Virus record (IMG/VR): IMGVR_UViG_3300010885_012574
Coordinates: 1 to 36,143 of that record
Source of the DNA: a virus
Direction: 5' to 3' (one strand)
Length of the DNA stretch: 36,143 nucleotides
A model generated the notes under the pieces. It worked only from the letters and a program-made list of their open reading frames with translations. It searched no databases and was not told where the DNA came from. The first letter of the stretch is position 1, and each line of letters opens with the position of its first letter. Positions 7,170 to 30,341 of the stretch are shown piece after piece. A program made the translations under genes and the position numbers.

Positions 7170-7607
7170 ATGCCTTATAAGAATCTTGAAATAAACCCAG
7201 TTCAATATAGTGAACAACATACCGATAAGTTAAGTCAATACTATCGAGGATTTAGCACAGCTAATCCAACTAACCGGGGCTCTAAACTCTACGACTTTGA
7301 TTTAATTAAACAAGATATTTTAAATCAATTTAATACTCGTAAAGGCCAGCGAGTAATGAATCCTAAGTTTGGATCTATTATATGGGACTTATTAATGGAG
7401 CCATTAACCCCACTAGTCAGCGATTTACTCAAGCAAGATATTGCTACTATTTGTAATTCAGATCCTAGAGTTTATCCATTACAAATGAATGTAAATGAAT
7501 ACCCACAAGGATATTTAATTGAGATAACATTGGCAATGAAGAACACAAATCAAACTTCCAATCTACGATTAGCATTTGATCAGAAGCTTGGCATAGTTGT
7601 ACAATAA
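7170..7607 (+). CDS. 25: Baseplate wedge subunit gp25 (GPW/gp25 family)
   Basis: A small wedge core protein, related to the gp25 subunit that starts sheath assembly in T4 and to protein W of P2-like phages. 145 residues against 132 in T4. Typical features: YDFDLIKQDILNQFNTRKGQ, RVMNPKFGSIIWDLLMEPL (the family's R-x-M-P-FG-x-L-W core), a following helix with SDLLKQDIATI, and a C-terminal strand YLIEITLAMKNTNQTSNLRL. Sixteen bases separate it from the spike gene. No clear Shine-Dalgarno is seen; the leader instead holds AATAAATA (7158-7165), too close to the ATG to be a standard promoter. The next gene encodes gp6, its usual partner in the wedge. Confidence 0.88.
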   Translation: MPYKNLEINPVQYSEQHTDKLSQYYRGFSTANPTNRGSKLYDFDLIKQDILNQFNTRKGQRVMNPKFGSIIWDLLMEPLTPLVSDLLKQDIATICNSDPRVYPLQMNVNEYPQGYLIEITLAMKNTNQTSNLRLAFDQKLGIVVQ

Positions 7608-11026: not shown

Positions 11027-14000
11027 ATGGCGGATAACAGAAAATCAGTTAATTTACTACCAGATTATTTAAAGTCAGATAAAAATTCAAAATTCTTATC
11101 TGCTACAGTAGACCCATTGATTCAATCTCCACAGTTAGAGCGTATTGATGGATTTGTAGGATCACGTTTAACACCAAATTACAATAATACAACAGATTTT
11201 TATATCAAAGAAAACTCTGCTCTAAGAACAAATTATTCTCTTGAACCAGCATTAGTTTTAAAAGAAGCATCTTCTAAGATTACAGATGTAATTGCATTCG
11301 ACGACTTAATTAATGAAATTGATATTCAAAGTGGAAAAACAAACAACCTTGATAGATTATTTAGATCTAAGTTCTATTCCTATGATCCTTATATTAATTG
11401 GGATAAGTTAGTAAATTATTCACAATATTATTGGTTGCCCAATGGTCCTGATTCTATAGTAATAAACATTCTTCCAGAAGATATAGAAGGATTAGTATCT
11501 TATACAATGCAAAATGGATACCCATTAAGCAATGGAATGAAATTGCGTTTTGATTCCAATGGCAACGAATATTATGTCGAAGGAGTGGGTAGTAGTATTA
11601 AATTAATTAATATTAAACTACTGGAAGTTAACGAATTAGCTGATGTAGCATATAACGAAACATTTGACAGTGACAAATTTGATAGTTATCCATTTGACGG
11701 TGATAAAAAAATACCATTAACCGCAGAATATATAACAATTAATAGAGCAAGTACTGATTTAAATCCGTGGTCAAGATATAATAGATGGTTTCACTCTGAG
11801 ATAATTCGTATCACATCAATAATCAATAATCAGCCATTTATATTACCTCTTAATTCAAGGGCTCAACGCCCCATTGTTGAATTTAAACCTAACATACAAT
11901 TATATAACTTTGGAAAAACTGGCATAGAAAAGATTACTGTAATTGATACAGACACTACTAATGCATTTTCCAGTGTTGATGGCACAATAGGTTACTATGT
12001 TGATGGAGTATTATTAGAGCACGGTAATACAATTATATTCAATGCTGATACCAATGACAATGTAAGGGGAAAAATTTACACAGTAAATTATGATATTTCT
12101 ACCAACCCATCTACACTTAGATTGGTAGATCCAGTTACTCCTAACAATTTAGATTCTGTTGCAATAAATTACGGAACTAATAATGCAGGAACGTGCTGGC
12201 ATTACAATTCTGCTACTGATAAATGGATATATTCTCAGCAACATATAAAAATAAATCAGGCACCATTATTTGATCTGTTTGATCATAATGGAATTAGTTA
12301 CACTGATACGGTATTATATAATTCTAATTTTGTTGGATCTAAAATATTTGGATATGATATAGGAACAGGAACATCTGATAAAATTTTAGGGTTTCCTCTC
12401 AAGTACAAAAATAGTGTAGGTGTTGGTAGTTATTTGTTTAAGAATTATTTCATGACAGATAGTATCAATGTTAGTTCAAGTGGTGTAATTTCCACTGTTC
12501 CTACTAGTGTTACATATTTTAAATTTTCTGATTCAGGCTTATTAAAAAATGTTTGGAGCATTGCTGTTGATTATCAAATACCAGTAATTGAAATACAAAC
12601 AATATTAACTGCTACAAATATAGCAACTATTTCATCAATTAGTCCTACACCTAATGTATCTGTAATTGCTTCTGTTAATTCTACTTTAACTACTGCAACT
12701 TTGTCAAAGACAGATTTAACTCTTACGTTTGACAAACCATTAAATGTAAATGATGTTCTATCATTGAAAATAACTTCTGATCAAATACCAAATAGTAATG
12801 GATTTTATGAAACTCCGCTTGGGTTAACAAACAATCCATTAAACGGCATTATTGCTAGTTTCACATTAAGTGAGCTCAGTGATCATTTGCATTCAATGGT
12901 TAATCGCATTACCAATTTCTCAGGATCTTTTCCTGGGTTGAGTAATTTAAGAGATTTAGATGATTATTCAAAATACGGAACCAGGCTTATTATAAATGCC
13001 AATCCTATTTCTTTTGCACAATTGTTTATTGGTAAGAAAGATCATAATGTAGTTGATGCAATACGACACGCAGCTGATCAATACAATCAGTTTAAGATGA
13101 ATCTTTTAAGAGCAATGGTAAGAGTAGATAGCCAATTAACTCCTGCCGAAGCACTTGATATGATTTTAACAGATATTAATAATAAAAGTTCAGGAGCACC
13201 GTATTATAGATCTGATATGTTAGGATATGGTTTTAATAAAATTAAAAGAACATATACAGTATCAAATACAAATGTAACACATTATCCTATTGGATTGGAC
13301 TTTGATTTAACTACATTAAGTTTTAAATCAGTGTTAGTATATATTAACAATATACAATTAGTTAACGAAGTGGATTACAGATTTTCTGTTGACGAAGTAA
13401 TAATTTCTTTAGGCTTATCTCTAAACGATGTAATAGATATTCATTACTATCCAGATACACTTGGATCATTTATTCCTTCAACTCCTAGCAAGTTAGGCTT
13501 GTATCCTGCTTATTCTCCAGTGATATATTACGATGAGTCGTATATTAGTGCTAATACAGTTTTAATACGTGGGCATGACGGCAGTGTTATGCAAGCCTAT
13601 GGCGATTACAGAGATAATATTATACTTGAATACGAAAAACGTGTTTATAACAATATAAAAACTAAGTATAATTCAGATATATTTGATATTAATGCTGTAA
13701 TTCCGGGTGTATATAGGAAAGACAAATATCAGTTATCAGATGCAAATGATATATTAATAAAAGATTTTATCAAATGGACAGGTGCATACGGTATAGATGT
13801 AAGTACTAATAATATATATGATGAGGGCGATCCGTCTACTTGGAATTATAAGAATAGTATTAATAAGTTAACCAATACTGCCATCTCAGGACACTGGAGA
13901 GGAATTTACAAATATTTCTATGATACAGACAGACCAGATATATACCCATGGGAGATGCTTGGCCATTCATCTAAACCTACATGGTGGGATACTCATTATA

Positions 14001-17000
14001 GTTGGGTAAATCCAAGTAAGCGAAGTGATCTAATATCAGCAATTACCATTGGTTGGACTGAAGAGCCTCCTTCAATTAAAATAAATGCTAACTATGCTCG
14101 GCCCGATTTTCCGTTCATGTGTCCTGTTGATCTGTTAGGTAATCTATTAATGCCTAATGAGTTCCTGGTAAGCGATACTGGATACTATGATAAAATATCT
14201 AGTTGGGAATTTGGCGATTACGGTCCGGCAGAAACTGCTTGGCGTAAAAGTAGTTATTGGCCATTTGCTCTAAATGCAGCAGCAGCATTGCTTGATCCTT
14301 GTACCTATACATCATCAATGTTTGATACAAGCAGAACTGAATTGAATAGCAATGGACAATTAACTTATAAAGTGGATAATGCATATTTAAATCCTAATAA
14401 ATTGTTAATTGAAGGATATGACAATGTACAAACAGCAGGGTTTGGTATATATGTTGTTGAGAAGGGTTTACAGAAAGATATAAATTATCTTTCTATATTG
14501 AAACAAGATTTAACATATATTAATTTTAACTTATTTCATAAAGTAGGCGGATTTGTCAGCAAAGATAAATTGCAGGTAGTTATTGATTCCATTGATCCAT
14601 TGTCACATTCTCCCGGTGCAGTATTGCCACCAGAAAATTATACATTGGTATTAAATGTCAGTAACCCAATTAAGTCTGCAAGTATATCAGGAGTTGTAAT
14701 TCAGAAATTTAATGGTAAATTTATTATCAAAGGATACGATAAATCTAAACCATATTTTAATGTATTATTACCTCTTAAATCTTCAGCATCTGGATCATTG
14801 ACCGTTGGTGGAAAATCTGAAGAATTTACCGAGTGGGCTGGATCAATAACTTCAAGCGGACTTGGAGCAATTGATGTTACTGCGCCAACTCCTACTACTA
14901 CTCGTTATTACAAACAAGGACAAATTGTAAGATATAATAATAGATATTATCGTGTTAAGGTTGGTCATGCAACTCAGCCCACATTTGATTCTACATTGTT
15001 TTATCTTTTATCAGAGTTGCCAATGGTCGGTGGATCAACTGTACAAAAATCTTCTAGATTTGAAAATAATGTAACTAAAATATCATATGGCACTAGTTAT
15101 TCTTCTATACAAGAAATCTATGATATATTAATAGGCTACGGTGCTTATCTTGAAAGTCAAGGATTTATATTTGACGAATTTAATACCGATCTAAATGAAA
15201 TAGTAGATTGGAAATATACAGGTAAGGAATTCTTATATTGGACTACACAAAATTGGGCAGATGGCAACTTAATTACATTAAGTCCATTTGCAGACTATTT
15301 GAAGTATGCATATAATGATTCTATTGTTGATAATATTTCAACAGGAGATTATGAATACAGTTTATTAAAAGCTGATGGAAAATCTTTTCCAATAGATAAA
15401 TTCCGACTTTCTCGAGAAGATGGAGTATGTGTCATTAATACCATTGATACACTTGAGGGAATATTCTTTGCTACATTAAATTCTGTACAGAAAGAACACG
15501 GTATGGTTCTTGATAACACTACAATTTTTAATGATACCATTTACGAAATTGATACAGGATATAAACAACAAAGAATTAAACTTCTAGGATTTAGAACTGC
15601 TGGATGGAATGGCGATTTGTCTAGTCCTGGATTTGTATATGATAATGTTGATATCACCGATTGGGCACCTTATACTCTATATTTGCCTGGAAAAGTAGTA
15701 CGATATAATGGTGCATATTATGAATCAAATTCAAAAGTTATTAACAATGCTATATTTGATTTCAATAAATGGGACAAACTAAACAGTAAACCTGAGTCAA
15801 ATCTTTTATCAAACTTTGATTATAAGATTAAACAATTTGAAGATTTTTATAGTTTAGATATTGATAACTTTGATATTTCTCAACAAAAACTAGCTCAGCA
15901 TCTTGTTGGATATACTCAACGCCCATATCTTAATAGTATTATTACTGATCCAATTGCTCAATATAAATTTTATCAAGGTTTTATTAAAGAAAAAGGCACT
16001 AAAAATGCCGTTGATAAATTGTCAAAGGTTGGCAATTTTACAAATCAAGGCGATATATCATTTAATGAAGAGTGGGCATTTAGAGTAGGACAATACGGTA
16101 GTTTTGTAACATATAATGAAATTGAAATTAATTTAACTGAAGGAACAGCATTAGAAAATCCGTATGTTGTTAAATTTGTAAATAGTAATCCGTTGAATGC
16201 TAATCCGTTAATAACTTACAAACTGCCGTCTGATCTATTATTAACTCCAGACGAATATATTTCTTCGTCAACATTTAATACCTATCCTAGCACCTTCTCA
16301 GATAACAATATAAAATTAAATACTGCTGGATATGTACGAGCAGACGACGTTACTGCTACTGCTTATAATAAAAATAGTTTATTAGATATTGCTAACAATT
16401 CATTAATACAAGAAGGTAATACTATTTGGTTAGGATTTTTAGAGAATGGTGACTGGACCGTTTATAGATATAGTAATCAATCTGCTAAAATTGCAGGAGT
16501 ATATGTTAGTTCTCCTGCAATTGATATTACATTTACCACAGATATAAATCATAGTTTGTCTGTAGGCGACATTATATCAATTGTTAGATTTAATGATCAA
16601 GTAAATGGAATACATATTGTCACAGCTATTCCTAGATTGGATCAGTTTACTGTAGCATCATCATTGACTACAATTGCCAATGCAGAGCTATTAAGTAATG
16701 GATCATTGTTTAAATTTGAACAAGCTAGATATAATAACTTAAACGAATTAGTTAATGGAGATATTGTATCAAAATTAAATTATGGAGAAAAAATCTGGAT
16801 AGATAACGGAGTTGGCGATAAATGGCAAGTATATGAAAAAATACAAAATCTTACTGTCGGATCTATTACTACAGCTTCTTCATTAGTACTTAATCAACAA
16901 TTTGGAAATAGTATATATACTCAAGAAGATAGCAATATATTATTAATGTCTGCTACAGGAAAATATACCAATGCTCCTAAATATGGTAATATATCTGTTT

Positions 17001-20000
17001 TTTATAAAATTAAAAATCTTTTAGAAAAACGTTTTGATTATACACTGAATAATAGTTTTAAAGTTTACTGCGACGATGTTTTACCAAATGAATTTGGATA
17101 TTCGTTGGCATATGATACTACCAAAGGACTTTATATCGCTGGTGCACCTGCGGCATCTTTGATAAAGGCTCCGTTAGTATCTGGAGTGGTAGTAACCAGT
17201 GACGGCTCCGGGACTCCTAAATCTTTTAATAGCGAAGGCTTGGTAAAAATTAGTAGCTATGACGAAATATTTAATACTGAAAAAACGGAAGCAGTATTAG
17301 TAAGTCCATACGCTACAAATGCAGCTACTGCTGAACATGCTAGATTTGGTCATTCTGTGTACGTTAATAATGTTGCATACACTGCTTCTACAATATTATT
17401 AGTTGGTGCACCTGGCGATATATACAGCAATAATAACTATTGCGGAAATGTATATGCATATAAGATAGACAGATTTAACTATTACAAAGCAACTAGAGCT
17501 CAGGTAATATATGCTCTCGCTGCTAATCCATTGGCTCCTTTGTATTACGGCGAGCAAACTATATTAAATTGGATGTTAGTTGGTCTTACAGGATTTCAAC
17601 AATTTCATATAGACTATAGAATAGCACATCCTGACGAAGCATCAATATGGGATGCTCAGAGAGCACAAGATGCAGTTGGAATAATAAACACAAGAGTAGA
17701 AGTACTAGCAGCATATCAGAATAACATTGATGCACAACTATACCCAGACGAAGCAAGTATTAGATACTGGATGATTAATGGATTAGGTGCAGATCTTAGC
17801 ACTTTTAATTATTCAGTTATTGTAGAAAATGAAAAAAATCCTGTACAACATCAGAAAAATCTAATTGAACGTAATACGGTAGAAAAACCCGCCGCTATAT
17901 ATATCAATCCACATCAGTCAGGAATATCTCTTAATTCTCACGTTGCATTAACTACCAGTAGCCATTATGGAAGTAAAATTGTAGGCGATACTTTGGGCAA
18001 TTTTATTGCAATATCAGCACCTTATCATATTGACTCTACGACTGATAGAACTGGGGTTGTGCAAGTATTTAATTCTCAATTAAATTGGGTACAAACGTTA
18101 TATTCACCATTTGAAAACAATGAAGTATTTGGTAATGATATGGCAGTTTCGTCAGATGGATCATATCTATTTGTATCATCAACGAATACAAAAGTTTCAG
18201 AAAATTCTCGTGGCAAAGTTGCAATTTATAAATTATCCGGATCTGGTAAAATTATTATATCCAGACGATCATCTGTATTAATTGCATATGCTGAAAATTT
18301 ATTAGCACCGTTATATCCAACTGAAGAAGAAATACAATATTGGATGTATGCAGGGCTAGGAACCAACAACAGTGATTTTTCATCTGCGGTCTTAAATGAC
18401 AGAGAATTAAATCCAGGTCAAGCCGCGTTAAATGATCAAGCAAGAGCAGCAGATATTCTAGGAATTAAATCAACACGAGCAGCAGTATTAACTGCTTATC
18501 GCAATAATTTAGATGCTCCTATATACCCAGATGAAGCAAGTATTAGATATTGGATGATCAATGGGCTTGGCTCAGGAGTTGATGGATTTACCGCAGAAAT
18601 TACAGCATTTAATGCAGCCAACCCTGATCAATATGCAGCAAATCTTGCAGAACGAGCAGCGTTGTTAGCACCGTCGCCTTACTTATCTACACGTTTTGAA
18701 GTAATATATGCGTTTGCTGCTAATTTATTAGCACCTGTATTCCCTAGCAATGCAATGATTTTGGATTGGATGACATCTGGGCTATCAGGGTTTGCATCGG
18801 GAATAAATTCATACAGGTCAGCACATCTATCTGAAGCAGCAAACTGGGATACAGATAGAGCAAATGACGAAACTGGAATTTACGGAAATCCTATAATAAA
18901 CACACGAGCAGAAGTAATATCTGCATATCAATCTAATCTCAATGCAAACTTGTATCCTACTGATACTGATATTAGATATTGGATGACCGTTGGGCTTGAT
19001 AGATTTGGTTCTAAGATAAAAAATGATAACACTAATTTTCCAGAACAATATGCAAGTTATCTACAAGTTCGTGCAACTGATGATCCGATTGCAACCAAAG
19101 CACAAGTAATATTAAAATATGCATCTAATTTAGAAGCAGAATTATATCCTAGTGACACTTCAATAAATTATTGGATGGTCCACGGACTTACTGAGTTTGA
19201 TAGTACAAATAATATAACCAGAAACAATGACCCTGCACTAGCTGCCTCCATTGATGATGCTCGTGCTGTTGATGCTAGAAATACAAAATCAACTAGAGCA
19301 GAAGTAATAACTGCATATCAAAATAATGTTGATGCTCCTCTATATCCCATTGAAGCAGATATAAGACGCTGGATGTTGGCTGGAATTACTAGCAATACTT
19401 TTAATTCTTTTAATAATAGTATTATTTCTTACAATGTATTGTATCCTGCCAATTATATAAAATTCCTTGCCCAACGCGATCGTGAAAATTCAAACGTTGA
19501 CTATAAGTTTGATATTCATCAGATTATAGTTAATCCGTTAATTCATAGTGGATTAAAATTTGGTACGTCAATTTCAATTAGCAAAAATAATAACAATCTG
19601 GCAATAAGTGCAATGGGCACTAATAATTCAGAATTATTAACTTTTGATAAAAATTCTAAAAACGGAAAAACTACATTTGACGGCGGCGTAACTAAATTTA
19701 CCGCAAATATACCTAATTCAGGCATTGTATATGTTTATGGTAATATAAATGGATATTTTGTTCAAGGAGAAACACTCAGCGACCCAGCATCATTAGCAGG
19801 TAACGGGTTCGGATATGCTATCGCTGCCACAAATAATAATATTTTTGTAAGTGCTTCGTCAACAATAAGTGCTTCAAGATTTTTTGAATTCTATAAACTT
19901 GACAGTAATGTTAATGGATTGAAACTTCTTAGAGAACAATCTGACCTAGTTGATATTTCTACTATTGATAGATTATCATTAATTGATTCTTTCAAAGAAG

Positions 20001-23000
20001 AACTAGTTGAATACTTGGATATAATTGATCCACTTAAAGGAAAGATTGCAGGAATTGCAGAACAAGAATTAAAATATAAATCAGCGTTTGATCCTGCTAC
20101 ATATTCAATTGGCACAGAGTTAACAGTTGTTGATAATAATACAAGTTGGATTGATGACCATGTTGGAGAATTGTGGTGGGATCTAAGTACCGCAAAATAT
20201 CAATGGTATGAGCAAGGTGATGATATATTTAGAAGAAATAATTGGGGCAAGTTATTCCCTGGTTCGAGTATTGATGTATATGAATGGGTTAAATCAGATT
20301 TGTTACCTAGTGAATGGGCAGCTCAGGCTGATACCAATGACGGATTAACAAAAGGAATAAGCGGACAACCTAAGTATCCTGATAACACCGTTGTTTCTGT
20401 TAAACAATTATTCAACAATGTAACAGGTGCATTTGAAAGTGTATATTTCTTCTGGGTAAAGAATAAAGTAACAGTGCCTAATGTTAAGAATAGAAGAATT
20501 AGTAGCTATCAGGTATCAACTATAATTTCTGATCCTGTTGCAAATGGATTAAAATTTGCTGAAATATTATCAGCAGACTCAATAGCATTTGCTAATGTTC
20601 AGCCGATGCTAGTTGGTAACAGAATAAATGCAAATATTGCTATCAATTCAGCCCGTAGTGAAATTCCTAGACATACCGAATGGTTGTTAATGTCCGAAGG
20701 TAATGATAGACGCATGCCACATCCATTGCTAGAGAAAAAATTAATTGATAGTTTGCTAGGACATGATTCATTAGGCAATACTGTTCCTAGCATGGAATTG
20801 ACATATAGAAATAGATATGGAACAGGAATACGTCCTCAACAAACATTATTCAAAGATAGAGTCAAAGCGTTAAGAAATCAAGTTGATTTTGCTAATTCTA
20901 TTTTAATTAAAGAAAGAATAACAAGTAATTACAATTTTAATAATTTAAATAGTTTTGATCCTGTACCTGATGAATTGTCTAGAGAGTACGATTTAATTGT
21001 TAATTCAGTTGAAGAACTTAATAGTATCAATACACAGCAGTTTGAGCAAGCATTACTAACTTGTACTGTCAATAATGGTAAAATAATATCAGTTGATATA
21101 TCAACTATGGGATATGGTTATACATTGCCTCCGCTAGTGACTATCGCAGGATTGTCTGGAAATGATGCAGTTATATTAACAGAAATTGATAGTAGCGGTC
21201 GGGTTATAAATGCGGTAATATCTAATCCAGGAACTGGGTATGTTGTTGCTCCTCGATTAATTGTTAGACCACAAACTGTTATTATTAAACATCATCCGTT
21301 ATATGGCAATCGTTGGACCAAGCATCAATTTGATTATGCTTCCCCTAATACTGATCGTGAACCATGGATAATAGTTAAAAATCAAACATACAATACCACA
21401 TTGTATTGGGACTATGTAGACTGGGCCAGTGATAGTTACTCGCCGTATAAAGATTACAAATATGTAATTGAAGGAGTATATGGACTTTCAACATTAGAGA
21501 ATATTGTAGTTGGTGATTACATAAAGATTAATAATATTGGCGATGGACGATTTGTTATTCTTGAAAGAATAGCAGATTCTGAATTTGGAGATTTCTCTCC
21601 ACATTATAATTTTGTTTATAGTGAGAAAGGGACAATTCAAATATCAGAATCTATATGGAAATTTTCTGATAAGAATGTTGCCTATGACGATGCTACATTA
21701 GAAGAAACATTATATGATCAAATACCTGACATAGAGTTATACTATATATTATTAGCATTAAAAGAAGATATTTTCATCAACCATCTCAAAGTTAATTGGA
21801 ATAAGTTTTTCTTTGCTGCTGTGAAATATGCCTTAACTGAACAAAAATTATTAGACTGGGCATTCAAAACATCATTCATTAATGTTGTTAATAGTGTTGG
21901 ATCATTAGATCAGAGACCTGTCTATAAATTAGATAATGAACAATACTTTGAAGATTACATCAAAGAAGTTAAACCTTATCATACAAATATTAGAACTTAT
22001 ACATCTAAATATTCTTCATTAGAAGAAAACTCAACTCTTTCTTTTACTGATTTTGATTCACCGTTATATTATAATACTGAAACAAACCAATTTAATGTTG
22101 TTAACTTCAACAATGGAGATTTATTAAGTCAGCAACCGTGGAAATCATGGGTAGACAATTACACATATTGTGTAGGTTCAATAATAGTAGCAGATGCAGG
22201 AACAAATTATACTCAAATTCCAACTGTTACTATTTCAGGTGGCGGAATGTCTGTTACATCAGTTGCAACTGCTGAAGCTTATATTAGAAACGGCGGAGTT
22301 TTCCAAATACTTGTAACACACCCTGGTGCAGGATATACTGAAACACCTACAATTACAATTTCAGGTGGCGGCCCATATGTAACTGTAACTGCGACTGTTT
22401 CTGTATCATTATTAAACTTGACCACAAGAAAAAATATTATAGGACTAAAGTTTGATAGGGTTGGTGCTCAATCTGAAATTGGAGATATTAATGTTTATGA
22501 TAAATTTGTATGTTCAGGAAAAGAAGATAAATTTTTATTATCATTGGTAGCCAATCGTAATAAAACAGACATCATTCCTACTCTTAATGGTAGATTGATA
22601 TTTGCCAATGACTATAAAATTGAATATTATTCAGAATTATATAACGGATACACAAAACATTATTCTAGATTTGTATTTTTAAATTATGTACCTGCTAAGG
22701 ATCAAATATTTGAAATTCATTATAAAAAGAGCATTGATTATTACACAGCAGTTGACAGAATAGATCAATTCTACACAGCTACTACTGCGTTATCATCGTT
22801 GATGTCAGGAGTAATATATCCTAATAATATTATACAGGGATTGCCATTTGAATATTCTACAGCCTGGGATACTATTCAAGGAAATTCAAAATATGATGTG
22901 TCTGCATGGAGCGATAATATAAGTTATTATGCATCAGCAAAATTAGTTAAAAATGTTATAGCAGGAACTTCAACTTTATATCTTAGTACTATCACTGATA

Positions 23001-26000
23001 TATATCCTGGACAAGTAATTAATATTTTAAATTCAACAACTAATCGTGTTCGTGCTGATACAGTAGTAGTCTCGGTTAATACTGAGGCTAAAAGTATTAC
23101 TATCAGTCAACCTCATTATGCAATTAAAACAGTTAAGTCAACTGCAACAAATGTAGGATCAGATATTGTTGTTACTACTGCGGTGCCATTTAATAGAAAC
23201 ATCGTATTAGGTGATACAGTTACCATAGTAGGAATTTCTGCTAAAGAATTTAATGGACAATATGTTATTGCTTCAACAGTAGACAATAATAAGTTTATTG
23301 TAACTGCTAAATCTGTGCTATCAACTACATCTACAATTAATACCTACGGTGATGCTAATGCAACAGTTTCGTCAATATTGTTTAATATTAATACAGCAAC
23401 TGTATTAATAAATTACATTAATGATACATATTTGAAATTATCTAACAATACAATTGTAATTGATTTAATGACACGATATGATGAAATTGCAAAAGTTAAA
23501 GTTTTAAAAGATAATGTTACAGCTGAAATGCTTACTGGAGATCCTTTAGGATCACATCCAGGTAGTGAATATTATCATTTAACTATTGATAATGAAACTA
23601 AAAATGTAATAGCAACTTTTTATCAGATGTCAAATTCTTCATATAATTTAGAAGTTTTTGTTTATGGTAATACAAATATTGAATTCTGGAAAACAGATTT
23701 CAATCAAAGTGGATTAGATTCAACATTGCCAGGTGGCCATTGGAACTCAGGATGGAACGATTTTGTTGGCGGTGCTGGTGTTACATTTACATCAACCTCA
23801 ATACTATCATCTACAACTGGAAATATTATTGATGGCGATTCATTCTTAAATGAACGTTCAGGATATGCTCCTGAAGAATGTGTTGCAGGTCATGTATTAG
23901 ATAGTTTAGGTATCAATGTTTATACAAAAGAAGATAACTCATATCCAACAGTATTATCTGGTTCGTTCTATATAAAAGCAGGTGCTACACCGTCTGCAAT
24001 AATAAGTGTAACGGATACTCAATCTGCTGGTATGATGGTTCATTATAATGGAAAAATACTTGACAGAGTAGCGAATCAAGATGAATTATCAAGTTCACAT
24101 GAATACTATATGGTTGGAAATACAATCCATCTTGGACCACAGACAGTATCTGGCCGCGGCGGATATACAATGATAACCATTGGTGGTAATTATTCATTAC
24201 TTGATAGTAATATGGAAACAATCTATCCTGGTGATACTCCTAAGGTGATAAGTTTATTATCAAGTATTAATGATGTTCATGGAACATATGTGTTAGTTGA
24301 CGGTGTAGAGATATCTGAGATTACTCAAGCAGATGCTGATGCAGGCGCCTATGGATATGTTGTTGGACCATATAGCAGTACAAATAACAGAGCCAGTGTG
24401 ACTGTCTACGATTTATCACGTGGTACACACAATATTCAGGCATGGTTCTTTGAATCAAAATATACAAAATTCAATAGAGTTCATGAAGAATTACTCGATG
24501 CTGGTACAGATCAAACAATGTTTGAACTTGGATTTGTTCCAGGAAATATTGAACCAGTTAGTGCTCAGGTAATTGTTGAAATATTTGATAATACAACATC
24601 AAGAAAAAGATTGCTTCCGCCTTGGGTAAGTTATTATCAGATTTCTGGTAATCAATTAACTTTTGCAATTGATAATAAACATACTCGTCTACCAGATACT
24701 TATTCTCCAAACACTGTATTTGTATATGCTAATGGTGTTAAATTACGTCCAGGATTTGATTATACATTAAATGCAGCCGATAGTACAATTACTATTATTG
24801 ATAAATTATTGAAAAAAGGAGATGCGGTTGCTGTAGTCGGATTGATAGATTATGACTATATAATAGATGGAAATATTTTAGAATTGACTACTCCAGTTTC
24901 CAATGTTAGCATAAAAGTTACATCGTTTACAAATCACGATAAAATGTTAACCAAAACAGAAAGATTTAATGGAGCATTATCTCGTCGCTTCACATTATCA
25001 TTTCCTACATTGTCTGATGACTATGTTTGGGTATACGTCGACGGTGTTCCATTAACTGCTAGAGATGAATTCAATATATTAGATGATGCACGTACAATCG
25101 AAGTAAGTGATTTAATATCTGTTACAACTGCATCGTCGGTGGTTATTACAACTATTAATCCACCGTCTTTTGGTAATATAATACTTGGATTTAGAATATT
25201 CAATGATATGTTTGATAAATCACACTTTAAAAGATTGTCAGCATTCCATAGCACAACATTATTACAACCATTAAGACATACCGATGACGTTATTGTATTA
25301 GCTGACGGAAATGGAATAATTCCACCTAACCCAATAATTAATAAACCAGGTGTTGTTATTATTGATGGCGAGCGTATTGAATTTGCAGAAAAAAATGGTA
25401 ATTTGTTAAAAAGATTAAGAAGAAGTACATTAGGAACTGGTCCTGCTACATTCTCAAATGTAGGTACTCAAGTATTTGATCAAAGTTCTCAACAAACTAT
25501 ACCTTATAGTGAAATAACATTAGTACAATCAACATCAACCACAAGTACAACATATATTATTAATACAGTAACTACAACTGCTACAGGAGCCGGCATCGTT
25601 TTAGATCCGTCTATAAATGCAGTAGATCAAGTTACAGTCTATTATGGTGGTCGACAGTTACGTAAGTCACCTGTAATAGTGCATGATAAGTTCTATGATA
25701 AACCTGTCTATGCTCCAGCGGCAAGAACAGCATATATTTTAATAGTTGGACAATCTAATATAGGTAACTATGGAGAACATACAGACAATTATATTCCTAA
25801 TATTAAAGTAAAACGTCTTGACATTAACGGCCTATGGGAACCTGCAGTTTCTCCAGCTGGTCCAGATAGATTAGCCACAGGATATAATTGGGCATCAGGC
25901 TCAGCAATTGATGTTCCGGGCGGAGTATCCGGTGGAAATATGGATGGCAGAATAGGTGATATACTTCTTAACAGTGGCGAGTATGACGAAGTTTATATTG

Positions 26001-26821
26001 TTAATGTTTCTGTAGGTGGAACGGAATTAGGTTGGTGGCTCAGCACAGCATTGTCATCAGACTACAACGGCGGAACTCCAAGAGGTGAAGATAATTTTTC
26101 ATATACTAATAACAAGCTATATGAAAGATTACAATTTGCTGTAAACAAATCAAATGATAAAGGGTTTAAATTTACACATGTTCTTCTTGGAATAGGAGAA
26201 TCAGATAGCATTAATTTTATTTCGTCGGCTAATTATTTTGATCACTTCTCAAAATTTAAAACAGATATTAGAAATTTAGGTATAGATGCTCCTATCTATA
26301 TTAGCAAAACTTCATATGTATCGTATTTGGATGGTGCGCTAATTTCAACTCGTAGTGAACTTATTGAATGCCAACAAAATATAATAAATGAATATTCAGA
26401 TGTATACTTTGGAGCCTATACGGATCAATACGGCGATAACTATCGATGGGACCATCTACATTTTAAAATAGCAGGATTAAATGCAGTTGCTAGCGATTGG
26501 GGCAACTCGATTATTACAGCAATAACATCATTTAATCCTAATGCTCCAGAGTTTTCTATAAACACTGCAACTAACGAATTGTCGTTAAATATTTCAGACT
26601 ACAACGGAATATCAACTAATATTACCATTGTACAAAGAAAAGGACATATTTGGACCGGAACAGAATCGTTGTTAACTAGTAACTCAATACAAGCTGAATT
26701 CTTACGTGATAGAAAATCAACATTACCTGATATATATTATTATGGCGGAGATACAGTGATTAGAGATAATAATAACAGCATTATTACTGACGATAACAAC
26801 CAACCCTTAGAAGGATATTAA
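11027..26821 (+). CDS. Giant 5264-residue baseplate/tail structural protein with propeller, helical repeats and SGNH esterase domain
   Basis: One unbroken reading frame of 15.8 kb, placed where T4 has gp7, gp8, gp9 and gp10 after gp6. Regions in order: residues 1-150 open with FVGSRLTPNYNNTTDF and VIAFDDLINEIDIQSG; about 690-1060 include DQYNQFKMNLLRAMVR, DTDRPDIYPWEMLGH and WWDTHY, a pattern I associate with very large structural proteins of marine T4-like and jumbo phages; about 2020-2965 are FG-GAP-like beta-propeller blades; eight helical repeats sit within the propeller (2156-2290 and 2413-2824); about 3345-3415 and 3717-3792 carry glycine-rich 'G-GY-P-TI' strands; about 4570-4710 hold two 'VYVDG-L-DY' beta modules; 4895-5165 is an SGNH hydrolase-like domain. 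GGAAC lies 8 bp before the ATG, and the stop is followed after 1 bp by the fibre gene. A baseplate-linked fibre or wedge role is inferred from position; the exact T4 equivalent is unknown. Confidence 0.7.
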   Translation: MADNRKSVNLLPDYLKSDKNSKFLSATVDPLIQSPQLERIDGFVGSRLTPNYNNTTDFYIKENSALRTNYSLEPALVLKEASSKITDVIAFDDLINEIDIQSGKTNNLDRLFRSKFYSYDPYINWDKLVNYSQYYWLPNGPDSIVINILPEDIEGLVSYTMQNGYPLSNGMKLRFDSNGNEYYVEGVGSSIKLINIKLLEVNELADVAYNETFDSDKFDSYPFDGDKKIPLTAEYITINRASTDLNPWSRYNRWFHSEIIRITSIINNQPFILPLNSRAQRPIVEFKPNIQLYNFGKTGIEKITVIDTDTTNAFSSVDGTIGYYVDGVLLEHGNTIIFNADTNDNVRGKIYTVNYDISTNPSTLRLVDPVTPNNLDSVAINYGTNNAGTCWHYNSATDKWIYSQQHIKINQAPLFDLFDHNGISYTDTVLYNSNFVGSKIFGYDIGTGTSDKILGFPLKYKNSVGVGSYLFKNYFMTDSINVSSSGVISTVPTSVTYFKFSDSGLLKNVWSIAVDYQIPVIEIQTILTATNIATISSISPTPNVSVIASVNSTLTTATLSKTDLTLTFDKPLNVNDVLSLKITSDQIPNSNGFYETPLGLTNNPLNGIIASFTLSELSDHLHSMVNRITNFSGSFPGLSNLRDLDDYSKYGTRLIINANPISFAQLFIGKKDHNVVDAIRHAADQYNQFKMNLLRAMVRVDSQLTPAEALDMILTDINNKSSGAPYYRSDMLGYGFNKIKRTYTVSNTNVTHYPIGLDFDLTTLSFKSVLVYINNIQLVNEVDYRFSVDEVIISLGLSLNDVIDIHYYPDTLGSFIPSTPSKLGLYPAYSPVIYYDESYISANTVLIRGHDGSVMQAYGDYRDNIILEYEKRVYNNIKTKYNSDIFDINAVIPGVYRKDKYQLSDANDILIKDFIKWTGAYGIDVSTNNIYDEGDPSTWNYKNSINKLTNTAISGHWRGIYKYFYDTDRPDIYPWEMLGHSSKPTWWDTHYSWVNPSKRSDLISAITIGWTEEPPSIKINANYARPDFPFMCPVDLLGNLLMPNEFLVSDTGYYDKISSWEFGDYGPAETAWRKSSYWPFALNAAAALLDPCTYTSSMFDTSRTELNSNGQLTYKVDNAYLNPNKLLIEGYDNVQTAGFGIYVVEKGLQKDINYLSILKQDLTYINFNLFHKVGGFVSKDKLQVVIDSIDPLSHSPGAVLPPENYTLVLNVSNPIKSASISGVVIQKFNGKFIIKGYDKSKPYFNVLLPLKSSASGSLTVGGKSEEFTEWAGSITSSGLGAIDVTAPTPTTTRYYKQGQIVRYNNRYYRVKVGHATQPTFDSTLFYLLSELPMVGGSTVQKSSRFENNVTKISYGTSYSSIQEIYDILIGYGAYLESQGFIFDEFNTDLNEIVDWKYTGKEFLYWTTQNWADGNLITLSPFADYLKYAYNDSIVDNISTGDYEYSLLKADGKSFPIDKFRLSREDGVCVINTIDTLEGIFFATLNSVQKEHGMVLDNTTIFNDTIYEIDTGYKQQRIKLLGFRTAGWNGDLSSPGFVYDNVDITDWAPYTLYLPGKVVRYNGAYYESNSKVINNAIFDFNKWDKLNSKPESNLLSNFDYKIKQFEDFYSLDIDNFDISQQKLAQHLVGYTQRPYLNSIITDPIAQYKFYQGFIKEKGTKNAVDKLSKVGNFTNQGDISFNEEWAFRVGQYGSFVTYNEIEINLTEGTALENPYVVKFVNSNPLNANPLITYKLPSDLLLTPDEYISSSTFNTYPSTFSDNNIKLNTAGYVRADDVTATAYNKNSLLDIANNSLIQEGNTIWLGFLENGDWTVYRYSNQSAKIAGVYVSSPAIDITFTTDINHSLSVGDIISIVRFNDQVNGIHIVTAIPRLDQFTVASSLTTIANAELLSNGSLFKFEQARYNNLNELVNGDIVSKLNYGEKIWIDNGVGDKWQVYEKIQNLTVGSITTASSLVLNQQFGNSIYTQEDSNILLMSATGKYTNAPKYGNISVFYKIKNLLEKRFDYTLNNSFKVYCDDVLPNEFGYSLAYDTTKGLYIAGAPAASLIKAPLVSGVVVTSDGSGTPKSFNSEGLVKISSYDEIFNTEKTEAVLVSPYATNAATAEHARFGHSVYVNNVAYTASTILLVGAPGDIYSNNNYCGNVYAYKIDRFNYYKATRAQVIYALAANPLAPLYYGEQTILNWMLVGLTGFQQFHIDYRIAHPDEASIWDAQRAQDAVGIINTRVEVLAAYQNNIDAQLYPDEASIRYWMINGLGADLSTFNYSVIVENEKNPVQHQKNLIERNTVEKPAAIYINPHQSGISLNSHVALTTSSHYGSKIVGDTLGNFIAISAPYHIDSTTDRTGVVQVFNSQLNWVQTLYSPFENNEVFGNDMAVSSDGSYLFVSSTNTKVSENSRGKVAIYKLSGSGKIIISRRSSVLIAYAENLLAPLYPTEEEIQYWMYAGLGTNNSDFSSAVLNDRELNPGQAALNDQARAADILGIKSTRAAVLTAYRNNLDAPIYPDEASIRYWMINGLGSGVDGFTAEITAFNAANPDQYAANLAERAALLAPSPYLSTRFEVIYAFAANLLAPVFPSNAMILDWMTSGLSGFASGINSYRSAHLSEAANWDTDRANDETGIYGNPIINTRAEVISAYQSNLNANLYPTDTDIRYWMTVGLDRFGSKIKNDNTNFPEQYASYLQVRATDDPIATKAQVILKYASNLEAELYPSDTSINYWMVHGLTEFDSTNNITRNNDPALAASIDDARAVDARNTKSTRAEVITAYQNNVDAPLYPIEADIRRWMLAGITSNTFNSFNNSIISYNVLYPANYIKFLAQRDRENSNVDYKFDIHQIIVNPLIHSGLKFGTSISISKNNNNLAISAMGTNNSELLTFDKNSKNGKTTFDGGVTKFTANIPNSGIVYVYGNINGYFVQGETLSDPASLAGNGFGYAIAATNNNIFVSASSTISASRFFEFYKLDSNVNGLKLLREQSDLVDISTIDRLSLIDSFKEELVEYLDIIDPLKGKIAGIAEQELKYKSAFDPATYSIGTELTVVDNNTSWIDDHVGELWWDLSTAKYQWYEQGDDIFRRNNWGKLFPGSSIDVYEWVKSDLLPSEWAAQADTNDGLTKGISGQPKYPDNTVVSVKQLFNNVTGAFESVYFFWVKNKVTVPNVKNRRISSYQVSTIISDPVANGLKFAEILSADSIAFANVQPMLVGNRINANIAINSARSEIPRHTEWLLMSEGNDRRMPHPLLEKKLIDSLLGHDSLGNTVPSMELTYRNRYGTGIRPQQTLFKDRVKALRNQVDFANSILIKERITSNYNFNNLNSFDPVPDELSREYDLIVNSVEELNSINTQQFEQALLTCTVNNGKIISVDISTMGYGYTLPPLVTIAGLSGNDAVILTEIDSSGRVINAVISNPGTGYVVAPRLIVRPQTVIIKHHPLYGNRWTKHQFDYASPNTDREPWIIVKNQTYNTTLYWDYVDWASDSYSPYKDYKYVIEGVYGLSTLENIVVGDYIKINNIGDGRFVILERIADSEFGDFSPHYNFVYSEKGTIQISESIWKFSDKNVAYDDATLEETLYDQIPDIELYYILLALKEDIFINHLKVNWNKFFFAAVKYALTEQKLLDWAFKTSFINVVNSVGSLDQRPVYKLDNEQYFEDYIKEVKPYHTNIRTYTSKYSSLEENSTLSFTDFDSPLYYNTETNQFNVVNFNNGDLLSQQPWKSWVDNYTYCVGSIIVADAGTNYTQIPTVTISGGGMSVTSVATAEAYIRNGGVFQILVTHPGAGYTETPTITISGGGPYVTVTATVSVSLLNLTTRKNIIGLKFDRVGAQSEIGDINVYDKFVCSGKEDKFLLSLVANRNKTDIIPTLNGRLIFANDYKIEYYSELYNGYTKHYSRFVFLNYVPAKDQIFEIHYKKSIDYYTAVDRIDQFYTATTALSSLMSGVIYPNNIIQGLPFEYSTAWDTIQGNSKYDVSAWSDNISYYASAKLVKNVIAGTSTLYLSTITDIYPGQVINILNSTTNRVRADTVVVSVNTEAKSITISQPHYAIKTVKSTATNVGSDIVVTTAVPFNRNIVLGDTVTIVGISAKEFNGQYVIASTVDNNKFIVTAKSVLSTTSTINTYGDANATVSSILFNINTATVLINYINDTYLKLSNNTIVIDLMTRYDEIAKVKVLKDNVTAEMLTGDPLGSHPGSEYYHLTIDNETKNVIATFYQMSNSSYNLEVFVYGNTNIEFWKTDFNQSGLDSTLPGGHWNSGWNDFVGGAGVTFTSTSILSSTTGNIIDGDSFLNERSGYAPEECVAGHVLDSLGINVYTKEDNSYPTVLSGSFYIKAGATPSAIISVTDTQSAGMMVHYNGKILDRVANQDELSSSHEYYMVGNTIHLGPQTVSGRGGYTMITIGGNYSLLDSNMETIYPGDTPKVISLLSSINDVHGTYVLVDGVEISEITQADADAGAYGYVVGPYSSTNNRASVTVYDLSRGTHNIQAWFFESKYTKFNRVHEELLDAGTDQTMFELGFVPGNIEPVSAQVIVEIFDNTTSRKRLLPPWVSYYQISGNQLTFAIDNKHTRLPDTYSPNTVFVYANGVKLRPGFDYTLNAADSTITIIDKLLKKGDAVAVVGLIDYDYIIDGNILELTTPVSNVSIKVTSFTNHDKMLTKTERFNGALSRRFTLSFPTLSDDYVWVYVDGVPLTARDEFNILDDARTIEVSDLISVTTASSVVITTINPPSFGNIILGFRIFNDMFDKSHFKRLSAFHSTTLLQPLRHTDDVIVLADGNGIIPPNPIINKPGVVIIDGERIEFAEKNGNLLKRLRRSTLGTGPATFSNVGTQVFDQSSQQTIPYSEITLVQSTSTTSTTYIINTVTTTATGAGIVLDPSINAVDQVTVYYGGRQLRKSPVIVHDKFYDKPVYAPAARTAYILIVGQSNIGNYGEHTDNYIPNIKVKRLDINGLWEPAVSPAGPDRLATGYNWASGSAIDVPGGVSGGNMDGRIGDILLNSGEYDEVYIVNVSVGGTELGWWLSTALSSDYNGGTPRGEDNFSYTNNKLYERLQFAVNKSNDKGFKFTHVLLGIGESDSINFISSANYFDHFSKFKTDIRNLGIDAPIYISKTSYVSYLDGALISTRSELIECQQNIINEYSDVYFGAYTDQYGDNYRWDHLHFKIAGLNAVASDWGNSIITAITSFNPNAPEFSINTATNELSLNISDYNGISTNITIVQRKGHIWTGTESLLTSNSIQAEFLRDRKSTLPDIYYYGGDTVIRDNNNSIITDDNNQPLEGY
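17090..19910 (+). other. Beta-propeller-like (FG-GAP-type) region inside the giant protein
   Basis: Residues about 2020-2965 contain at least six segments of the type 'FG-S-(8-12)-L-V-GAP...G-VY-Y': FGYSLAYD...LYIAGAPA; FGHSVYVNN...ILLVGAPGD...GNVYAYKID; YGSKIVGDTLGNFIAISAP; FGNDMAVSSDGSYLFVSS; FGTSISISKNNNNLAISA; FGYAIAATNNNIFVSAS. These resemble the blades of integrin-alpha type FG-GAP propellers. Blades two and three, and again four and five, are separated by the helical repeat units described separately. A propeller of six or seven blades is an inference from spacing. Such domains usually bind proteins or glycans. Confidence 0.5.
17492..19498 (+). repeat. Eight divergent repeats of 64-72 residues in the giant protein
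   Basis: Repeat starts are at 17492, 17690, 18263, 18473, 18689, 18902, 19094 and 19292, with a 370-bp propeller segment between the second and third. The consensus is T-R-x-x-V-[IL]-x-x-Y-x-x-N-[LI]-x-A-x-L-Y-P-x-[DE]-x-x-I-x-x-WM-x-x-GL, followed by a helix ending in a P-x-x-x-x-x-L-x-x-R/A phrase. They come as four A-B pairs: A units (first, third, fifth, seventh) and B units with the better conserved LYP-E-IRYWM core. The second and fourth units share 40 of 43 bases at 17739-17781 and 18522-18564; the three changes are silent transitions. The repeats look helical. They recall DUF4214-type extracellular repeats only loosely, and I do not assign a family. Confidence 0.8.
21059..22402 (+). 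repeat. Two glycine-rich beta double-repeats (G-GY...P-VTI) in the giant protein
   Basis: Four copies of a short strand motif occur in two pairs. Pair one lies at 21059-21267 (MGYGYTLPPLVTIAG and NPGTGYVVAPRLIV). Pair two lies at 22175-22402 (DAGTNYTQIPTVTISGGG and HPGAGYTETPTITISGGG). The intervening phrases are also alike (KIISVDIS, GRVINAVIS, GVFQILVTH). This looks like an internally duplicated small beta domain used twice, as is common in phage fibre proteins. Between the pairs lies a different segment (WDYVDWASDSYSPYKDYKYV and on). Confidence 0.6.
25715..26521 (+). other. SGNH hydrolase / sialate O-acetylesterase-like domain (C-terminal part of giant protein)
   Basis: Residues about 4895-5165 carry the ordered blocks of the SGNH fold: block I GQSN with probable nucleophile Ser4910 (LIVGQSNIGNYGE); block II VSVGGTELGWW, as in carbohydrate esterase family 6 and sialate O-acetylesterase-like proteins; a GESD at 5057-5060 (LLGIGESDS), the position of 'QGESD' in that family; and block V DHLH with probable catalytic Asp5142 and His5145 (WDHLHFKIAG). 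All key residues appear intact. The family removes O-acetyl groups from sugars; on a tail protein the likely substrate is acetylated surface polysaccharide, which is inference. About 100 beta-rich residues follow it. Confidence 0.75.
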
Positions 26822-26822
26822 C

Positions 26823-27893
26823 ATGACAAAAATTACACAAGCACCATTTATTACACCAGGCGCGGGCACCGGGCTAGTAGTAACAGATTCGTTAGCAATA
26901 GGAAGGATACATTATAATGATTTGGTACACCAACTAGCACAAGACATTCAAGGTCTTCAAGGAACACAAGGTAGTTCTACTGGAAATACTGGAGCTCAGG
27001 GGATGTATGGAGTTCAAGGATTACGAGGATCTCAGGGGACTGTTGGACGTACTGGAACTGGTGCTCAGGGAATAGCAGGCTCTGCTGCTGCACAAGGTGT
27101 ACAAGGCCGTCAAGGAGCTCAAGGAGTACAGGGTGCTCAGGGATTAGGACTTCAAGGGCGGCAAGGGATATCAGGGTCAGCTGTTGCACAAGGATCCCAA
27201 GGACTTACTGGTACTGGTTCTCAAGGAGTTCAAGGAGTACAAGGTGCAGGTAGTCAGGGAGTTCAAGGCACAATAAGTCCTACAGCTGGTTCTGCAAATC
27301 AAGTAATATATAAGAATGCAAGTAATATAGCATCAGGCAGTGAGTATCTTATATTTGACGGAGCTGCACTTTACTCTTATACAATGGTATCTGCAAGACA
27401 AAACGGAGCCGAAGGCGGGTATTTTAACTTGTTTGTACCTGCGTCTGGACATACTCTAAATGGGGCAGCCGTGATAATAGATGTATACGCTAATACACTT
27501 AGAGTATATGAATCTGGATCTCCTAAACGCGGCGGATATATTGATATTACAAAATTATCAGCAGATGCAAGTACTAATTTACTCGGTGTGGGTGTAGGAC
27601 AGGCATGGTCTGACAATCTCTCACCATCGGGTACTTCAGAACGCACACTTAGTTCATCTTATAGAAATACTTCTGGACAACCCATATCAGTACAAGCTGG
27701 TGCTTCAGTTAACGGATCTTACATGTTTCTTTATTACAGTACAAACAACACAGACTGGATTACACTTGATCAAACATATGGCGCTGGCGGAGCAACTGGG
27801 GTTGCAGTTAAGGCAATTATACCCGATAGTGGATATTATAAAGTTGAATGTTCTAACTTAGTTGCCTGGAGTTTTTGGCACGAATTAAGATAA
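26823..27893 (+). CDS. Collagen-like tail fibre protein
   Basis: 356 residues in three parts. Residues 1-42 form a short N-terminal anchor (MTKITQAPFITPGAGTGLVV, then IHYNDLVHQLAQDIQ). Residues about 43-150 are collagen-like G-x-y triplets with Gln very often in the third place (GVQGRQGAQGVQGAQG). There is almost no proline, as in bacterial and phage collagens. The triplet register is broken twice by GSAAAQ/GSAVAQ and three times by single dipeptides (GT, GL, GA). Residues about 155-356 are a C-terminal globular head (ARQNGAEGGYFNLFVPASGH, SYMFLYYSTNNTDWITLDQ, ending YYKVECSNLVAWSFWHELR) that resembles a beta-sandwich binding domain. AAGGA lies upstream, one base after the giant gene's stop. 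A trimeric fibre carrying a receptor-binding tip is the natural reading; the receptor is unknown. Confidence 0.78.
   Translation: MTKITQAPFITPGAGTGLVVTDSLAIGRIHYNDLVHQLAQDIQGLQGTQGSSTGNTGAQGMYGVQGLRGSQGTVGRTGTGAQGIAGSAAAQGVQGRQGAQGVQGAQGLGLQGRQGISGSAVAQGSQGLTGTGSQGVQGVQGAGSQGVQGTISPTAGSANQVIYKNASNIASGSEYLIFDGAALYSYTMVSARQNGAEGGYFNLFVPASGHTLNGAAVIIDVYANTLRVYESGSPKRGGYIDITKLSADASTNLLGVGVGQAWSDNLSPSGTSERTLSSSYRNTSGQPISVQAGASVNGSYMFLYYSTNNTDWITLDQTYGAGGATGVAVKAIIPDSGYYKVECSNLVAWSFWHELR
26948..27275 (+). repeat. Collagen-like G-x-Q coding repeat
   Basis: About 35 consecutive Gly-x-y units, written in DNA mainly as variants of CAAGGAGTT, CAAGGAGTA and CAGGGTGCT. The near-identity of units (for example CAAGGAGTTCAAGGAGTACA at 27223-27242) makes length change by slippage or recombination likely between relatives. 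Confidence 0.8.
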
Positions 27894-28598: not shown

Positions 28599-30341
28599 AT
28601 GTCATATATATTACATTTTTCAGATCCAAATGCTACAGCAACAATTTCAGTATCATCAAAGGCCGAAGGCACTGGCGTTAATATAGATAGTACCAGCTTA
28701 ACTCTTGTTGGTGCTGGATATCAAAACTATGGACTACCTACAGCACAGAATTTTTTAAAGTTATTAGAAAATTTTGCCAGCCCTAGTCAGCCTAACAATG
28801 CAATTAAAGGCCAACTTTGGTATGATACTAGTAATACACTAAGACCTGTTTTACGAGTTAATAATGGAACAGGTACTGCCGGAAGATGGACTCCTGCTAA
28901 TGGCATATACCAACAAACAACTGATCCTACAATAAGATATACTAGTATCGGAGATGGAGATATTTGGGTAGATACAGCTAACAACCAATTAAAAATTAGA
29001 TTTGAAAATACATGGACTATAGTAGGACCAACTGTACTAAATGGAGCAACTAAAACTGGAGCCAGCTCTGAAATTGTACAAAGCGTCACTGGAGATTCAT
29101 ATCCAATATTAAAGAATTGGGTAAATGGAAAAGTAATAGAGATTATCTCCAACGATGCATTTACTCCTAGAACCGTTATTGATGGGTTTTCTACCATAAA
29201 AACTGGTACAAATATTACATCTAAAGTTTTAGCAAAGTATAACGGACTTTCAGAAAAATCATCTGCACTTGAAGTATCACCGGGTGTACTAATTACAGCA
29301 GCTGATTTATTAAAAAACAAAGTAACATCTCAAATTCATACAGGAACGTTGTATGTAGAATCTGCAAATGGGTTGTATATTCGACCAACTTCTAATGGCA
29401 ATGCACTTAACTTATATAGTAATACAACTAATAATGGATTTATTAATTATCCAGGTTCTACATTACAAATAGGAATACAAAATACTTCATATTTAAAATT
29501 TAATTATGCATATGCTAGCCTTGGTATAAACAAAGATCCTACATCTATTAGTCCTACGTTAGATGTCGCAGGCGGCGCCAAATTTACTAATTTAGTAACA
29601 ATTGCATCTTCTGCTACAGTGGCTTTGTCAGTTGCAGGCGGCGCAACATTTGGTGGTGCAGTAGCATCACATGGCTTATATGTTACTGGACTAACAACAT
29701 CTACTGGGAAATTAACAGTGAGCTCAGTATCTGATGCTGTTGCAATCGAACCATCATTGGATAATTTATACGATATTGGATCTGCTTCGAAGAAATTTAG
29801 ATCAATATATGTTTCAGATATATATGGCCCAGATCTGTTACATGGTAGTGTAACTGGTTCCGCAGCTTCTTTAACAAGTTCTAGAAATTTCAAGATACAA
29901 GGTCAAGTTACTACTACAAATTCTGTTTTGTTTAATGGTACAGAAGATGTAACATTAATAACCACACTAACAAAATCAATCATTAGTGATCAGAGTACTG
30001 TCAATACAACAACGTCCACACAAACAATATTAGTTTTAAACACAGCTACCACAACATCTGAGTTAGAAAAAATATCTAAATCAGATTTCTTATCTGATGT
30101 ATATCCTATATTGTTTCAAACTGGAATGATTACTGCATTTGGAACTTCTACTAATATTCCTTTAGGATTCTTACCATGCGACGGTGTTACATCATATTCA
30201 GGTGTAACATATTCTAAACTGTATGCTCTTATTGGTAAAACTTACGGAACTGATGGCGGCACTACATTTAAGACTCCAAATATGTCATCAGCCACATTGG
30301 TTTCGCCAGGTGTGTATTTAACATATATTATAAAGACATAA
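28599..30341 (+). CDS. Tail fibre protein with C-terminal tail-collar domain
   Basis: 580 residues. The N-terminal module (about 1-150) is shared with the two following genes: LVGAGYQNYGLPTAQNFLKL LENFASP, GQLWYDT, then GDGDIWVDTANNQLKIRF and a WTIVGP close. This is probably the attachment to the baseplate. The middle (about 190-480) is a Ser/Thr/Val-rich fibre shaft with repeat-like TLDVAGGAKFTNLVTIASSA and LSVAGGATFGGAVAS phrases. The C-terminus (about 505-580) is a phage tail-collar domain: GMITAFGTSTNIPLGFLPCD, YSKLYALIGKTYGTDGG, TFKTPNM, as in T4 gp12-type short fibres. The ATG follows the upstream stop by 2 bp, with GGAATTTAATT before it. Receptor binding by the collar tip is inferred. 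Confidence 0.8.
   Translation: MSYILHFSDPNATATISVSSKAEGTGVNIDSTSLTLVGAGYQNYGLPTAQNFLKLLENFASPSQPNNAIKGQLWYDTSNTLRPVLRVNNGTGTAGRWTPANGIYQQTTDPTIRYTSIGDGDIWVDTANNQLKIRFENTWTIVGPTVLNGATKTGASSEIVQSVTGDSYPILKNWVNGKVIEIISNDAFTPRTVIDGFSTIKTGTNITSKVLAKYNGLSEKSSALEVSPGVLITAADLLKNKVTSQIHTGTLYVESANGLYIRPTSNGNALNLYSNTTNNGFINYPGSTLQIGIQNTSYLKFNYAYASLGINKDPTSISPTLDVAGGAKFTNLVTIASSATVALSVAGGATFGGAVASHGLYVTGLTTSTGKLTVSSVSDAVAIEPSLDNLYDIGSASKKFRSIYVSDIYGPDLLHGSVTGSAASLTSSRNFKIQGQVTTTNSVLFNGTEDVTLITTLTKSIISDQSTVNTTTSTQTILVLNTATTTSELEKISKSDFLSDVYPILFQTGMITAFGTSTNIPLGFLPCDGVTSYSGVTYSKLYALIGKTYGTDGGTTFKTPNMSSATLVSPGVYLTYIIKT

Follow-up and report, generated by a model that had tools for sequence, protein, structure and literature searches.

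The giant open reading frame (ORF) of the 36,143-base virus record analysed here (the whole stretch is referred to as the window) most probably encodes a genuine virion structural protein of jumbo T4-like phages, which holds the genomic slot of T4 gp7 and forms a modular baseplate arm with swappable domains that bind or modify the host surface; we put the probability of this reading at roughly 0.78. Sequence comparison bears out an intact frame, membership of a known family, the order gp25–gp6–giant, two conserved cores, variability in the middle and at the end, and a cassette-like turnover of domains (Table 1).

Table 1. Positions in the window of the giant gene, its predicted modules, and neighbouring genes of the tail operon.
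Feature	Residues	Position	Strand	Remarks
gp5-like hub/needle gene with GH19 chitinase domain		4859..7153	+	
gp25-like baseplate wedge gene		7170..7607	+	
gp6-like baseplate wedge gene, 1124 aa		7650..11024	+	directly upstream of giant; phrog_10646, E 2.9e-290
Giant virion structural protein gene, 5264 aa		11027..26821	+	PHROG 10938 family
Core A	1-1860	11027..16606	+	common to PA5oct, RaK2, Atu_ph07
Fibre-anchor-like beta-module, copy 1	732-812	13220..13462	+	Foldseek match presumably placed here
CBM5/12-like chitin-binding-type module 1	1290-1330	14894..15016	+	PF02839, E 5e-5, below curated cut-off
CBM5/12-like module 2	1545-1588	15659..15790	+	weak
Highly conserved block of core A ('FYQGFIKEKGTKNA...EEWAFR.G.YG')	1590-1720	15794..16186	+	found in 60 isolate records
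Seven FG-GAP-like propeller blades	1959-2964	16901..19918	+	interrupted by two inserts
Insert 1 (predicted helical), one A-B repeat dimer	2156-2290	17492..17896	+	between blades 3 and 4
Insert 2 (predicted helical), three A-B repeat dimers	2413-2820	18263..19486	+	between blades 5 and 6
Core B	2960-3690	19904..22096	+	common to PA5oct, RaK2, Atu_ph07
Glycine-rich beta module 1	3349-3413	21071..21265	+	
Glycine-rich beta module 2	3715-3782	22169..22372	+	matches phrog_460
Fibre-anchor-like beta-module, copies 2 and 3	4560-4648, 4650-4718	24704..25180	+	
Putative SGNH/SASA carbohydrate-esterase cassette (Ser4910, Asp5142, His5145)	4892-5172	25700..26542	+	absent from most relatives
C-terminal domain	5174-5264	26546..26818	+	conserved in most relatives
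Collagen-like tail fibre gene		26823..27893	+	downstream of giant
Three genes with similarity to PA5oct gp358 (annotated as T4-gp10-like) and gp359		28599..32630	+	

The giant is encoded by one ATG-to-stop frame of 15.8 kb, or 43.7% of the window, in agreement with an earlier reading of the sequence alone (hereafter the sequence-only reading), which had described an unbroken single gene occupying over 40% of it; at the base composition of the window, a frame of this length would arise at random with a chance of ~10^-190. The window comes from a metagenomic contig, which favours an assembly artefact fusing separate genes, but several lines of evidence make this extremely improbable. GC content by codon position is even along the whole frame (GC3 0.15–0.23), so that no internal frame switch is visible, and no exact repeats of at least 18 bp occur inside the ORF, which renders a repeat-driven join unlikely. 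Independent assemblies have the same architecture: the homologue on one such contig (L117) encodes 5257 aa and aligns end to end with the window giant at 65% identity, with the same modules, and this locus and its copies contradict an artefactual fusion. Relatives of the first 1000 residues were found in 92 candidate stretches, from which 80 loci were kept; 19 of the 20 relative records read over the whole gene have a single intact frame (4273–5257 aa). In the other (L123, record G009), the homologue lies in two frames (3916 and 841 aa), owing to either a sequence error or a genuine split of the gene. For the related pair L115/L116, dN is 0.066 and dS 0.311 (dN/dS ~0.21 over 4585 codons), which indicates that purifying selection maintains the giant in that pair along its full length, further contradicting an artefact. 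The artefact is thus rejected, and the 15.8-kb ORF is confirmed as a real single gene.

By sequence similarity, the giant belongs to a known family of RaK2/PA5oct/Atu_ph07-type jumbo phages, PHROG 10938 ('virion structural protein'), rather than being a new kind of protein, with profile matches extending from residue 4 to ~3690 (E 2.7e-133, 1.7e-138, 2.5e-60, and others). Using tblastn, it was matched over residues 6–1860 and 2968–3690 in ~60 jumbo-phage isolate records, including the PA5oct group, RaK2, K64-1, 121Q, PBECO4, GAP32, CBB, Munch, Atu_ph07, and Phosso. Homologues include PA5oct gp355 (3857 aa), RaK2 gp465/ORF070 (3326 aa), Atu_ph07 gp180 (4449 aa), and CBB_236 (3340 aa); the window giant is longer than all isolate homologues examined and all 20 fully read relatives. 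PA5oct gp355 is annotated as detected by ESI-MS/MS, and CBB_236 has been found in virions (21 peptides, 7.72% coverage; PMC5259590). The sequence-only reading had regarded the domain combination as one not previously known; the protein family itself proves to be known, with members confirmed in virions by mass spectrometry (MS), and what is new is its modular variation, i.e., A–B dimers in propeller loops and a shuffled esterase cassette.

The giant lies directly 3' of the gp6-like gene in a gp53–gp5–gp25–gp6 operon, consistent with membership of PHROG 10938. This operon is collinear with PA5oct gp347, gp348 (gp53), gp349, gp350 (gp5), gp353 (gp25), and gp354 (gp6), and the collinearity continues through gp355 (the giant), gp357, gp358 (annotated as gp10-like), and gp359; the PA5oct baseplate operon, the order of which the window matches, is MS-confirmed. 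The gene directly upstream of the giant is gp6-like in 70 of the 73 metagenomic relatives for which that gene was readable. An exception was noticed among the isolates, Salicola phage SCTP-2, in which the giant is distant from gp6; here the 3807-aa giant homologue (L164) adjoins a second, 3096-aa giant with which it has no relationship by profile. The gp6-like neighbour and the operon order uphold the earlier placement of an intact giant tail/baseplate gene at the T4 gp7 position. The accompanying suggestion that one chain may replace separate wedge and fibre proteins is unsupported for the fibre/pin part, given that the collagen-like fibre gene and the gp358/gp359-like genes persist downstream.

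Other genes of the window have features of their own. In the gp5-like hub/needle protein, a C-terminal GH19 chitinase domain stands in place of a T4-type lysozyme. The three genes related to PA5oct gp358 and gp359 have in common an N-terminal module of ~100 residues (GQLWYD motif), which is also present in those two PA5oct proteins; they look as if a gp10-like or fibre gene had been duplicated in place. A thymidylate synthase gene, recognised by eye (32627–33508, minus strand), is convergent with the tail operon. The gene at 34695–35957 (minus strand) encodes a DUF2201 protein with putative metallopeptidase and VWA-like domains (PF13203, 2.5e-42; PF09967, 4.5e-15); the family is labelled 'HNH endonuclease' in PHROGs, which looks like a misannotation.

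T4 gp7 initiates baseplate wedge assembly. In T4 the gene following gp6 is gp7, in P2 it is gpI, and in the window it is the giant; by position, the giant occupies the gp7 slot, whereas homology to gp7 is unsupported. It is possible, though doubtful, that the giant is a true but very diverged homologue of T4 gp7 or P2 gpI, with a gp7 fold inside core A or B and the rest added. Apart from the location directly after gp6, common to both proteins, this reading draws on a cyanophage protein of ~3000 aa that is annotated as gp7 baseplate wedge initiator in the same slot, and on residues 1660–1685 (KGT...EEW), which by eye resemble KGT...TEWW of gpI. However, hhalign of all giant segments against a 26-sequence gp7 family gave probabilities of at most 0.5%, Tail_P2_I (PF09684) was not found in the giant at E ≤ 10, and the hhalign score against P2 gpI fell within shuffled controls, after which the likeness of the KGT...EEW block to gpI was dropped; this region is also modelled at low confidence. 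Searches with hhalign and hmmsearch against single sequences of T4 gp8, gp9, gp10, gp11, and gp12 gave nothing convincing, including a marginal match to gp9 at residues ~1710–1840 (E 0.003 in a 13-sequence database).

Structure prediction lends no support to gp7 homology within residues 1–1200. The AlphaFold2 model of these residues is confident (pLDDT 86.9, pTM 0.83), and in BFVD its fold matches jumbo-phage relatives (TM 0.6–0.79); in the PDB, no Foldseek match reached E < 0.001, to wedge proteins or to any other solved structure. The wedge-like N-terminus of the sequence-only reading therefore stands by position only, and neither profiles (probabilities <1%) nor the fold of this model sustain the proposed relationship of residues 1–1100 to T4 gp7, gp8, or gp10. 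The model of residues 1180–1960 is poor (pLDDT 68), with no solved-structure match at E < 0.001; matches to ubiquitin E1 were taken as chance, the model being too weak to interpret.

Below threshold, Foldseek aligned parts of ~75 residues of the model of residues 1–1200 locally with fibre-anchor domains. The giant contains a beta-module (~70–90 residues) in three copies, which recognise each other (E 8e-8 to 7e-3), and the top match of their profile is gp49 from the tailspike complex of B2 (E 0.0026), followed weakly by a phage tail-fibre N-terminus. Because the short local Foldseek matches include chains from the same entries (9d84 and 7y1c), these modules are best read as fibre-anchor-like, a view that we hold with modest confidence. 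The first CBM5/12-like module has PDB profile matches to a deacetylase (E 0.015), and the paired glycine-rich beta modules reported previously were recovered.

The region between cores A and B contains FG-GAP-like blades starting at residues 1959, 2023, 2107, 2314, 2368, 2845, and 2928, which confirm a predicted FG-GAP beta-propeller of seven blade repeats; the blade profile derives from the units of the window itself, and the best PF14312 match lies just below cut-off (E 1.6e-4). Near relatives that lack the inserts (e.g., L118) have the same seven blades at regular spacing, and no blades were found in PA5oct, RaK2, or Atu_ph07 at the threshold used. The inserts comprise eight units of 64–72 aa, forming four A–B dimers that are predicted to be helical, and the earlier description of a propeller with inserted helical repeats is thus sustained, with helicity read from the sequence. 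Four dimers (eight units) are present in the window and L117, and approximately one in L115, L116, L119, and L127; the rest of the full-length set has none, and where the dimers are absent (e.g., L118) BLAST gives clean continuity. A DUF4214-type origin, suggested by eye, was rejected on finding no Pfam match to the A–B repeats. Outside the giant's own relatives, no relatives of the repeats were found in the phage collection, the viral-contig scan, or the genome contigs, the 8-mer pattern scans among these being insensitive; the repeat alignment is too diverged for a profile-guided scan. The A–B dimers may constitute an undescribed repeat family.

Near the end of the giant, PF03629 matches residues 4889–5173 with 27.9 bits against a curated cut-off of 24.8, passing alone, and the catalytic motifs GQSN (which includes the serine) and DHLHF (Asp-x-x-His) are retained, as they are in L117 and L247. 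The cassette is therefore a putative SGNH/SASA esterase with predicted activity, in line with the intact esterase-like domain that had been recognised from the sequence. Besides the window, it occurs in four viral-contig loci, three being the L117 group and the fourth L250. In the window and L117 it is at a single site that is skipped in other relatives; in most of those lacking the esterase, the C-terminal domain comes immediately or almost immediately after residue ~4890. L250 (2180–8533) encodes an unrelated 2118-aa Calx-beta/Ig-like protein without a PHROG match, in which the esterase is 58% identical and nothing else is detectably common with the giant. That an unrelated protein on a different contig also carries this cassette is direct evidence that domains are shuffled among the giant tail proteins of phages. 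In addition, two laminin-G domains (L121 residues 967–1439) are inserted in L121 at window residue ~946, and Big_9/cadherin-like domains are appended after the C-terminus in L119. These comparisons show that domains have been gained and lost at a few sites that tolerate them, and the exchanged domains may set host range.

In the proposed arrangement, the cores would build a large peripheral baseplate arm on the gp6 ring, in the place of T4 gp7, and the fibre-anchor-like beta-modules would fix the chain or dock separate fibre proteins, the genes for which lie just downstream. The propeller and its helical repeats, the CBM-like modules, and the esterase would face outward and bind host surface glycans, which in the window lineage the esterase would de-acetylate before sheath contraction. 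Exchange between phages would take place at residue ~946, the two propeller loops, residue ~4891, and the C-terminus. For other phages, it is established that esterase tailspikes can act on LPS (PMC11654681). Counting against a gp6-linked arm are the SCTP-2 giant, which is not adjacent to gp6, the undetectable homology to gp7, gp8, gp10, and P2 gpI, and the low quality of the model of residues 1180–1960.

The adhesin-like cargo (anchor-like modules, FG-GAP propeller, CBM, LamG, Ig, and esterase) could also suit a protein that is mainly a side fibre or whisker-type adhesin rather than a wedge component, and that merely sits in the baseplate operon; RaK2-like phages bear ramified fibres and whiskers, the proteins of which are unassigned (PMC3622015, PMC5259590). 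We consider this unlikely, as the linkage to gp6 is nearly strict and cores A and B are strongly conserved throughout the group, both of which point to a fixed structural site, and no other gp7 candidate was recognised in the operon. Extending the preferred reading of a modular baseplate arm, we tentatively suggest that a gp7-slot giant unrelated to gp7 might serve as a single-chain chassis, the fixed sites of which accept exchangeable enzymes, lectins, and repeat arrays; that cassettes might move to and from unrelated adhesins of other phages; and that the A–B dimers might be a previously undescribed repeat family that expands in place and could act as a tunable spacer or as a tunable element for receptor binding.

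In the RaK2/PA5oct group, a giant in which gp7 homology is undetectable holds the gp7 slot, which in cyanophages is likewise occupied by a giant; this raises the question of how such baseplates assemble and what role the giants play. The metagenomic relative set maps which parts of the giant are rigidly conserved and which accept cargo, providing defined domains for expression and defined cores to seek in cryo-EM maps.

Compared with known systems, T4 gp7 (1031 aa) has the same place after gp6 but no profile similarity to the giant and no fold similarity to the model of residues 1–1200. The cyanophage giants S-SSM6a CYVG_00275 and S-SSM7 gp7 ('baseplate wedge initiator'), of ~3000 aa, also directly follow gp6 in a T4-like baseplate operon, with no convincing homology to the window giant beyond short common beta/glycine-rich modules. 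VrlC has been described as a gp7 substitute in pelagi- and cyanomyophages (PMC7029224), and a giant in the gp7 slot of the window phage fits the pattern set by VrlC and the cyanophage giants. For the esterase cassette, the Rhizobium phage acetylesterases, also phage esterases, match at ~25% identity, and B2 gp48/gp49 and the G7C-type SASA/SGNH esterase tailspikes, likened here by description, also carry an esterase on a tail protein; phage esterase tailspikes are separate spikes, whereas the window esterase sits close to the C-terminus of a giant encoded in the baseplate operon. The PHROG 10938 members PA5oct gp355, RaK2, Atu_ph07, and CBB_236 are homologous at residues ~1–1860 and ~2960–3690 and have the same post-gp6 place. 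The PA5oct and CBB members have been seen in virions by MS, and the window giant is by homology a predicted virion protein; the isolate members read have 3326–4449 aa, compared with 5264 aa in the window; and PA5oct, RaK2, and Atu_ph07 are without a detectable FG-GAP propeller, helical A–B dimers, or SASA esterase segment, whereas the window giant has all three.
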